DNA of 64,000 bases. It comes from Acetomicrobium flavidum. Its GTDB lineage: Bacteria > Synergistota > Synergistia > Synergistales > Acetomicrobiaceae. Made by a program: the position numbers and the translations under genes. Every line of letters starts with the position of its first letter. Within the stretch, counting starts at the first letter, position 1. Below, in pieces: positions 56,032 through 58,721 of this stretch. Below the pieces are notes generated by a model. It was not told the DNA's origin, did not search any database, and saw only the letters and a program-made list of their open reading frames with translations. The stretch covers positions 1,450,001-1,514,000 of the forward strand of contig NZ_FSQZ01000001.1 of the NCBI RefSeq assembly GCF_900129645.1. Direction: 5' to 3'.

Positions 56032-56096
56032 ATCCTTCTGTTCGAACCGATGGGGTCGGACATAGACTGTTTTGGGAAGAAGGAATGAATTGCACC

Positions 56097-57968
56097 ATGA
56101 ACGATATTTCCAAGATACGCAATGTGGCCATTGTAGCTCACATTGACCACGGCAAGACAACCTTGTTGGACTCGGTATTTCGGGCGACCAGATTGTTCAG
56201 AGAAAATGCAAAAGTCGAAGAACGCATCATGGATAGCGACGAATTAGAGCGAGAACGCGGCATAACGATACGATCTAAGCATTGTTCTGTCCAATGGAAC
56301 GGATACTTGATAAACATCATAGACACTCCCGGGCATGCGGATTTTTCAGGAGAGGTGGAACGCATTCTTTATATGGTCGATTCTGTTTTGCTTTTGGTAG
56401 ACGCAAACGAGGGCCCAATGCCGCAGACCAGGTATGTATTGATGCGAGCACTAAAGGCAGGCCTTAAGCCCATAGTAGTGTTAAACAAGGTAGATAGGCC
56501 GAATGCGAACGTGCAGGAGGCGCTTAATGCGACCTTTGACCTGTTTTTGGAGCTCGGCGCCACCGATGAGCAGGCAGACTTTCCGGTTCTTTACGGTTCC
56601 GGTCTTGATGGATGGTTCGTTAAAGACCTTGAACATGACAAACGAGAAGGCATGGACGCTTTGTTTGAGACGATAATAAGTTATGTTCCTGCACCTGTTG
56701 GCGACATCCGAAAGCCGTTTCTCATGCAGGCCACAACGCTTACGTGGAACAATTACATAGGTCGCGTAGGGTGTGGAAGGATCCTTCAGGGGAAGATCAA
56801 AAAAGGCGACTTAATTGTAAGGACGAGCACTGCTTGGCTTGACAGAAATAAGGGAGAATGGAATGTAACCGGACAGGAGATCGCGAAGGTAAGCCATCTT
56901 TGGATGATGCAGGGGTTAAAGCCGGTTGAGGTTGATGAGGCATCGGCCGGAGACGTGGTTTGGATTTCAGGCCCGGAGGACATATTGATTGGAGATACCT
57001 TGTCTGCTGAGGAAAACTCTGATGTAGCACTTGCACCTTTGGACATAGAAGAACCAACGGTATCGATGTTTTTTCTGGTAAACAATGGGCCCTTTGCCGG
57101 CAAGGAGGGGAAACCCGTCACGTTAAGGCAGATAAAGGACAGGTTAATTCAGGAGGCAAGGGTCAACGTTGCCCTTAAGGTTGAGGACATCGGACGACCA
57201 GATGGCCTCAAGGTCTCGGGCAGAGGCGAGCTACACCTTGCAATCTTGATAGAGGAGATGCGCCGTGAGGGTATGGAATTTTGCGTCTCGCGGCCCGAGG
57301 TGATAACCAAGTACGATGAAGAACACAACCTGCTGGAACCCGTAGAGCAGCTGATCATAGATATTCCTGAAGAGTATCAAGGCGTTGTCATAGAAAAGAT
57401 CTCAAGGAGAAAGGGCGAATTCGTGAGCGTTCAAAACTTGGGGACTGGTCTTTTGCGCCTCGAGTTCAACATCCCTACAAGAGGGCTCATAGGTTATCGC
57501 ACAGAATTTTTGACTGATACCAGAGGTCTTGGAATAATGTCGTCCCGCTTCATAGGTTATGATCTTTGGCGAGGAGAGATAACGGGGCGAAACCGTGGAT
57601 CTATGGTGAGCATGGATACTGGTGAAGCTACAAGCTATCAACTTGACAGCCTGCAGCATAGAGGTACACTGTTTATATCTCCAATGGACGAAGTTTACGA
57701 GGGCATGGTAATAGGCGAGCATTCTCGCCCAAATGACCTGCCCTGCAATCCAACGAAGAAGAAGCATGTGACCAATCATCGCTCCGCATCTAAGGATACA
57801 CCCATCATCCTTGATGTTCCTAGGAAACTGACGTTAGATGCCGCACTTGAATGGATAGCCGAAGACGAGTTGGTCGAGGTTACTCCTCTTTCCGTGAGGG
57901 TGAGAAAGAGCATCCTACGTCAGGATGAGCGCAAGAAAGCCGCTAAAAAAGTTCTAGCTAACTGTTAA
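56097..57968 (+). CDS. typA: Ribosome-associated GTPase TypA/BipA
   Basis: About 623 residues, a translational GTPase related to EF-G. G1 is AHIDHGKTTLLDS, the switch region carries RGITIRSKH, G3 is DTPGHADFSGEV and G4 NKVDRPNA. Later domains include the BipA-specific GRGELHLAILIEEMRREG and the C-terminal EYQGVVIEKISRRKGE and KHVTNHRSA. It aids ribosome assembly at suboptimal temperature and stress. ATG 56085 and 56097 are both possible. AGAAGGA sits directly on the first, which favours the second. Confidence 0.95.
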   Translation: MNDISKIRNVAIVAHIDHGKTTLLDSVFRATRLFRENAKVEERIMDSDELERERGITIRSKHCSVQWNGYLINIIDTPGHADFSGEVERILYMVDSVLLLVDANEGPMPQTRYVLMRALKAGLKPIVVLNKVDRPNANVQEALNATFDLFLELGATDEQADFPVLYGSGLDGWFVKDLEHDKREGMDALFETIISYVPAPVGDIRKPFLMQATTLTWNNYIGRVGCGRILQGKIKKGDLIVRTSTAWLDRNKGEWNVTGQEIAKVSHLWMMQGLKPVEVDEASAGDVVWISGPEDILIGDTLSAEENSDVALAPLDIEEPTVSMFFLVNNGPFAGKEGKPVTLRQIKDRLIQEARVNVALKVEDIGRPDGLKVSGRGELHLAILIEEMRREGMEFCVSRPEVITKYDEEHNLLEPVEQLIIDIPEEYQGVVIEKISRRKGEFVSVQNLGTGLLRLEFNIPTRGLIGYRTEFLTDTRGLGIMSSRFIGYDLWRGEITGRNRGSMVSMDTGEATSYQLDSLQHRGTLFISPMDEVYEGMVIGEHSRPNDLPCNPTKKKHVTNHRSASKDTPIILDVPRKLTLDAALEWIAEDELVEVTPLSVRVRKSILRQDERKKAAKKVLANC

Positions 57969-58035: not shown

Positions 58036-58284
58036 ATGAAGGGTAAAATCAGTGCTTCCCTTCTTGCCCAGTATGCTTATTGTCCAAGGTCGGCATGGTA
58101 TCGTGCGCACGGTATTGTGCCAAAGGGCAATGGAAGCAGCAAGCTTTTAAAAAAGGGGAAGAGGGCGCATAAGTTTTTTGGAATTTTTGAAAGATTTTAC
58201 GGCTTATGGAGCTTGATATGGAGGGCCGCTTTTCTCGCACTGGTTGGAGGAATAGCGCTTTGGGTGTATCAAAGATTGAAATGA
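58036..58284 (+). CDS. Cas4-like nuclease, N-terminal half with tail anchor
   Basis: 82 residues from ATG 58036, with GGAGG 10 bases upstream (GTG 58030 is an alternative). It begins like Cas4/DUF83 proteins: SASLLAQYAYCPRSAWYRA holds the first Fe-S cysteine (C16). KKGKRAHKFF (H45) resembles the RecB-nuclease motif I histidine. The chain then runs into one hydrophobic helix (IWRAAFLALVGGIALWVYQ, ~62-80) and stops. The missing Asp, Glu-Lys and three cysteines are in the next gene, whose ATG overlaps this stop (ATGA). The two look like one split nuclease, or a recent frameshift. Confidence 0.65.
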   Translation: MKGKISASLLAQYAYCPRSAWYRAHGIVPKGNGSSKLLKKGKRAHKFFGIFERFYGLWSLIWRAAFLALVGGIALWVYQRLK

Positions 58285-58721
58285 TACTTTTAATGTTGGT
58301 GCTCTGCGGCATTGGGGTTTATGTTTGGTGGATGAGGGAGATTCCGATGAGCATAGACTCAAAAGTATGGAGCGGCAAGCTGTTTACGGGCAGGCCAGAT
58401 GCAGTGATAAAAAAAGGCCCCCGGATCATACCGGTTGAGTTTAAGAGCGCCAATCACGAAGAACCTATGGAAAGTCATAAAGTACAGCTTTTGTGTTACT
58501 GTTTCCTTTTGGAAGAAAATGGTTATAACGTACCTTATGGAATATTACGATATCGAGGAAAAAAGTTCAAAATACATTGGAATAGCAAAGCAAAGCGATA
58601 TTTAATGAAGATAGCCGAAGAAGCGATCCAGAGCCTCTCCAAGAATGAGCCTCCACTTCCTCTAGCGGAAAACGATAATAGATGTTATAAATGTCCTTAT
58701 CGCTTTATCTGTAAACAATAA
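58281..58721 (+). CDS. Cas4-like nuclease, C-terminal half with N-terminal anchor
   Basis: 146 residues from ATG 58281. One hydrophobic helix (ILLMLVLCGIGVYVWWM, 2-18) is followed by the catalytic core: D40 (TGRPDAV), E53-x-K55 (VEFKS), Q69-x3-Y73 and a C-terminal C135-x2-C138-x5-C144, matching the last three Fe-S cysteines of Cas4. With the upstream protein it would supply a complete Cas4-like PD-(D/E)XK exonuclease held at the membrane by two helices. No CRISPR array or other cas gene is nearby. Its frame extends back to 58206, inside the first gene, but the ATGA overlap is the natural start. Confidence 0.7.
   Translation: MILLMLVLCGIGVYVWWMREIPMSIDSKVWSGKLFTGRPDAVIKKGPRIIPVEFKSANHEEPMESHKVQLLCYCFLLEENGYNVPYGILRYRGKKFKIHWNSKAKRYLMKIAEEAIQSLSKNEPPLPLAENDNRCYKCPYRFICKQ

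Follow-up and report, generated by a model that had tools for sequence, protein, structure and literature searches.

The closest described relatives of the locus reported here are the solo Cas4 nucleases (PF01930/TIGR00372), among them Pcal_0546 (PDB 4R5Q) and SSO0001 (PDB 4IC1), which are encoded outside CRISPR loci and are single soluble chains with one N-terminal and three C-terminal cysteines. Text searches of the open-access literature brought up no description of a Cas4 that is either split or anchored in the membrane, and a keyword check of the main text of a phylogenomic survey of the family returned no mention of either splitting or membrane anchoring (PMC5704561).

We analyzed a 64,000-nucleotide stretch of the Acetomicrobium flavidum genome (the window, to which positions refer unless another contig or locus is named), in which two overlapping genes, here called A and B, carry the motifs of one Cas4 between them. 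The original prediction described them as two open reading frames with divided Cas4 motifs and one hydrophobic helix each, and both the translations and the profile matches agree with this description. Judging from the sequence comparisons presented below, a two-chain, membrane-anchored, Cas4-like architecture is highly probable, and the best overall explanation of the locus is that A and B probably constitute a two-subunit solo Cas4-family nuclease, likely of the [4Fe-4S] type.

Division of Cas4 motifs between two genes

Gene A (58036..58284, forward strand; 82 amino acids) corresponds to the N-terminal half of a Cas4-family nuclease, as identified from its translation, its profile match, its orthologs, and its helix. 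The translation contains AYCPRSAWY with Cys16 and GKRAH (G-x-R-x-H) with the motif-I histidine, His45, and its C-terminal part consists of a hydrophobic helix at approximately residues 59-77 followed by a short basic tail. Gene B, the C-terminal half, lies on the same strand at 58260..58721 if its probable TTG start is used, and was identified from its translation, matches to two profiles, a comparison of start sites, and its orthologs. An N-terminal hydrophobic helix is followed in the B translation by GRPD, EFK, Q-x3-Y, and C-x2-C-x5-C, in that order, and the key residues, counted from the TTG at 58260, are Asp47, Glu60, Lys62, Gln76, and Tyr80.

Profile searches showed that the resemblance to Cas4 exceeds chance, with matches of different strength for the two halves. 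B passed the cut-off of PF01930 (Pfam Cas_Cas4; E = 1.4e-14, 55 bits against 22.7) and matched positions 67-179 of NCBIfam TIGR00372 (E = 7.2e-18) with a borderline score (65.0 against a cut-off of 65, and 63.5 in the genome search); its match to TIGR03491 was weak (E = 0.002, with a score of 17.2 against a cut-off of 97.45). A matched positions 1-40 of TIGR00372 (E = 3.7e-06), and taken alone it scores under the cut-offs of both PF01930 and TIGR00372. Because the two matches are collinear on TIGR00372, A and B are the two ends of one Cas4.

Alignment with single-chain Cas4s places the cut, together with the two helices, between the histidine motif and the strand that leads to G-x-x-D. When the two chains are added together, His and Asp are 81-99 residues apart, compared with 20-36 in the five single-chain Cas4s that were correctly parsed (a sixth value, taken from a wrong motif, was left out), and the extra length thus corresponds to roughly two helices. 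Every pair examined has a hydrophobic helix at the C-terminus of A and at the N-terminus of B, with 19-residue Kyte-Doolittle peaks of 1.5-2.6 (1.83 for A and 2.12 for B in A. flavidum); the least pronounced is the A helix of G020, a genome from another family of the order, which is borderline at 1.53. Single-chain Cas4s are without such helices at the cut position, as judged by alignment and hydropathy, and the highest peak among them, 1.7, comes from a single Cas4/Cas1 protein, in the core helix that bears Q-x3-Y. With one hydrophobic helix in each chain, A and B are both predicted by hydropathy to be integral membrane proteins, and the basic charge found before the helix of A and after the helix of B favors a cytoplasmic location of the putative nuclease.

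The motif-I histidine, G-x-x-D, E-x-K, and Q-x3-Y are all present and are invariant in the alignments. Catalytic residues and cysteines are conserved in Acetomicrobium, in G020, and, at low overall identity, in pairs on plasmids of Paludisphaera and Singulisphaera; this includes Cys16 of A and the C-x2-C-x5-C of every complete B (in one fragmentary assembly the C-terminus of B lies on another contig). These conserved motifs lead naturally to the inference that a single cluster and a single active site would form between the chains, and in our judgment the two chains probably do form one active nuclease. Members of the Cas4 family are single chains, whereas every pair found consists of two open reading frames, and we have filed A-B as a putative Cas4-derived two-chain variant and not as an ordinary Cas4.

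Structure prediction was of limited resolving power, with AlphaFold mean pLDDT values of 57 and 66 for the separately modeled halves. The low-confidence model of A has a continuous helix at 37-81, and that of B, likewise of low confidence, has its elements in a PD-(D/E)XK-like order. Foldseek searches with the weak B model returned top matches that all belong to the Cas4 family or Dna2 (7mi4, 8d3l, 5eax, 9iac, 4r5q; best E-value 2.9e-03), and a profile of A gave no relevant match among solved structures.

Conservation of the split and of the A/B junction

The pair is rare in the phylum, occurring in seven of 188 Synergistota genomes: six from Acetomicrobium, including that of A. flavidum, and G020. 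B shares ~70% identity with its counterparts in the five other Acetomicrobium genomes and ~41-42% with that of G020, and A, whose orthologs occur in the same genomes, lies directly before B in all seven. Weak A-profile matches in two further genomes (G037 and G152) had no B-like frame after them and were dropped, while a scan of genome contigs gave no match with B alone and only Acetomicrobium-type loci with an alignment. In Acetomicrobium the gene order is kept as thioesterase (divergent), A, B, aminotransferase, and ilvD, and in G020, too, the thioesterase and GntR are neighbors of the pair. In A. flavidum a TypA/BipA gene (56085-57968) lies between the thioesterase and A; the remaining Acetomicrobium loci have the thioesterase adjoining A (at 74 nt in locus L030).

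The original prediction had named as its competing view a frameshift of a one-chain ancestor, and the -1 relation of two frames that jointly make up one Cas4 chain is in keeping with a single-chain gene broken by frameshift mutation or by faulty assembly. We consider this explanation extremely improbable. First, the same split is found in the six Acetomicrobium genomes, in G020, and on two Planctomycetota plasmids, with helices on both sides of it and separate frames without internal stops, and single-chain Cas4s have no such helices at this place. Second, among the four closest genomes dN/dS (NG86) ranges from 0.12 to 0.42 in A and from 0.05 to 0.25 in B, which indicates that both genes are under purifying selection (in deeper comparisons dS was saturated or undefined). 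Since the split, the anchors, and the division of motifs are conserved both in Synergistota and on the Planctomycetota plasmids, we reject a frameshift of recent origin as well as an error of sequencing. The search of Synergistota that the original prediction had proposed thus showed the split itself to be conserved; it turned up no fused A-B form, and none was found elsewhere in plasmids, phages, viral contigs, or genome contigs scanned with a narrow pattern.

The exact form of the junction is less constant than the split. B had originally been read from an ATG (58281-58721, 146 amino acids, in the -1 frame relative to A), giving an ATGA overlap at 58281..58284. This overlap is present in A. 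flavidum but is specific to this species within Acetomicrobium, as the other species either have no ATG at the site or, in one metagenome-assembled genome, have it three bases further on. All Acetomicrobium compared do carry a TTG at -22 from the stop codon of A, 9 nt after a GGAGG that lies inside A (58246..58250 here, forward strand) and is the probable ribosome-binding site of B; the G020 junction has a GTG at -19. Since GGAGG-N9-TTG is conserved across the compared Acetomicrobium and the ATGA is not, B probably starts at the TTG (58260), which gives a 25-nt overlap with A (58260..58284, forward strand) in a -1 frame relation. The GGAGG is encoded by a Gly-Gly pair in the helix of A, and its conservation may consequently serve the protein, initiation, or both.

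A conserved -1 relation also raises the alternative that one chain with a membrane hairpin is made by programmed -1 ribosomal frameshifting. The seven Synergistota loci compared all show this relation, as do the plasmids, the B frame is open upstream of the B start, and G020 has a GGGGGGC in the right phase. However, GGGGGGC occurs only in G020 and the orthologs have no slippery heptamer in common, the start of B in Acetomicrobium is both well placed and conserved, and the stop-start overlaps of the plasmid pairs, which are of the ATGA type, are typical of translational coupling. We regard frameshifting as unlikely and continue with the reading of A and B as two chains.

Plasmid-borne pairs and the host CRISPR locus

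A tblastn search of plasmids with B recovered two pairs from Planctomycetota, on PALBO2 of Paludisphaera borealis and pSINAC03 of Singulisphaera acidiphila, with lengths of 91+169 and 88+169 amino acids, respectively, and an ATGA overlap between the first gene and the second. In translation, the first gene, labeled as a hypothetical protein in both plasmid records, has a cysteine, G-x-R-H-H, and a C-terminal helix, and the second, a PD-(D/E)XK gene, has an N-terminal helix followed by GRPD, EEWK, Q, Y, and C-x2-C-x5-C. When A was used as the query against plasmids, the Paludisphaera sequence found only these two plasmids and the G020 sequence found none; no relatives of the pair were detected in the viral contigs scanned, or in phage records searched with three B queries. 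In phylogenetic analysis with the helices removed, a single clade of all split pairs had an AU p-value of 0.52 and appeared in 34% of bootstrap trees. A third plasmid, pPL62-2 of Planctomyces sp. SH-PL62, carries a frame-broken B remnant with an N-terminal helix (L091 3837-4336), situated directly after an IS701 transposase where A would be expected.

The PALBO2 pair has PDC-S54, a PADLOC defense candidate, on one side and a type IIG/MmeI-like enzyme on the other, and the pSINAC03 pair adjoins an N-6 methylase. The PDC-S54 match is a hypothetical protein encoded upstream of the pair in Paludisphaera, at a distance of two genes (L087 949-2172, E = 1e-148).

For A. flavidum, the original prediction stated that no CRISPR genes were nearby, which holds for the region examined around the pair but not at a larger scale, as the genome has a cas locus ~53 kb away (G000:C1:1555000-1570000, L041). 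This locus contains cas3, cas4 (C1:1561553), cas1 (C1:1562042), and cas2 together with a repeat array that shows up as recurring FPSLIGSSKT/FELPMRDGN frames, and its gene order suggests that it is likely type I-B-like. Its Cas4 is an ordinary single chain. Given that six of the seven pair-bearing genomes also have cas1, and that some solo Cas4s participate in adaptation (PMC12538437), the pair could be conceived as a diverged duplicate of the host CRISPR adaptation Cas4 that acts with Cas1-Cas2. Several observations make this very unlikely: the pair is not encoded with cas1 or cas2 and lies, as expected of a solo Cas4, outside the CRISPR-cas locus; one genome (G002, 80% complete) has the pair while cas1 was not found in it; and in a tree built with the helices removed, a sister relationship between the Synergistota pairs and the CRISPR Cas4s of G000, G020, and G158 was rejected (AU p = 0.0004).

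Proposed mechanism and comparison with known nucleases

In the mechanism we propose for a two-subunit solo Cas4, A and B would be co-translated and inserted side by side, each chain by its own helix, A with its N-terminus and B with its C-terminus in the cytoplasm. A two-helix bundle would bring the pair together and the cytoplasmic halves would join, with A giving Cys16 and His45, and B giving Asp47, Glu60, Lys62, Gln76, and three cysteines. Together they would form a single [4Fe-4S] cluster and a single active site, which would depend on metal and lie on the inner side of the membrane. The most speculative step is the last, in which the pair might trim or destroy DNA passing or located at the membrane, for instance incoming phage or plasmid DNA or transformation DNA.

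This last step is suggested by the membrane anchors and the plasmid neighborhood, and we propose only tentatively that the pair acts on incoming DNA or defends against it. All seven pair-bearing genomes have ComEC-like genes, a count that covered pair-bearing genomes only and has no bearing on a link. A function in DNA repair or recombination at the membrane, and not in defense, is a possibility to be taken seriously, albeit one to which we would not give even odds. Repair is a function often anticipated for solo Cas4s (PMC12538437), and in Acetomicrobium the pair is vertically inherited and has housekeeping rather than defense genes as neighbors in all genomes; on the other hand, the plasmid copies lie beside restriction and defense-candidate genes, and a repair role leaves the membrane anchors unexplained. 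Returning to incoming DNA, it is conceivable, but far from established, that these pairs represent a class of Fe-S nucleases not described before, with two subunits tethered to the membrane and with members in at least two bacterial phyla on both plasmids and chromosomes, which would cut DNA at the membrane as a first barrier to incoming DNA or as a step in its processing. If the proposal is correct, a Cas4-family nuclease would have its cluster and active site built from two membrane-anchored chains, DNA cutting would be placed at the point of entry of phage, plasmid, and transformation DNA, and the pair would provide a naturally occurring split nuclease that must assemble to be active.

Several known systems share parts of this design. 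AddB/RecB and the TM0106-type RecB-like nucleases (TIGR03491) have a related PD-(D/E)XK domain but, unlike A-B, are large single-chain proteins. The Argonaute-associated ACE1 (9IAC, 9IAB), which was among the Foldseek matches, has a Cas4-family fold outside CRISPR; it is a single chain of ~268 residues, and inspection of the list of open reading frames around the pair revealed no Argonaute gene. CRISPR Cas4s and Cas4/Cas1 fusions (7MI4, 8D3L) carry the same motifs and are the best Foldseek matches of the weak B model, and by tblastn among plasmids the B of G020 is closest to Cas4/Cas1-type proteins; the pair differs from them in having no adjoining cas1 or cas2, in its two chains and anchors, and in not being sister to the CRISPR Cas4s of its hosts. 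The solo Cas4s resemble the pair most fully, in motif order, catalytic residues, arrangement of cysteines, and genomic location, and what sets A-B apart from them is a chain cut in two with an anchor helix on each part. Recurring as it does in other species and in a distant phylum, the two-piece layout looks like a real and unreported enzyme design, and not a broken gene.
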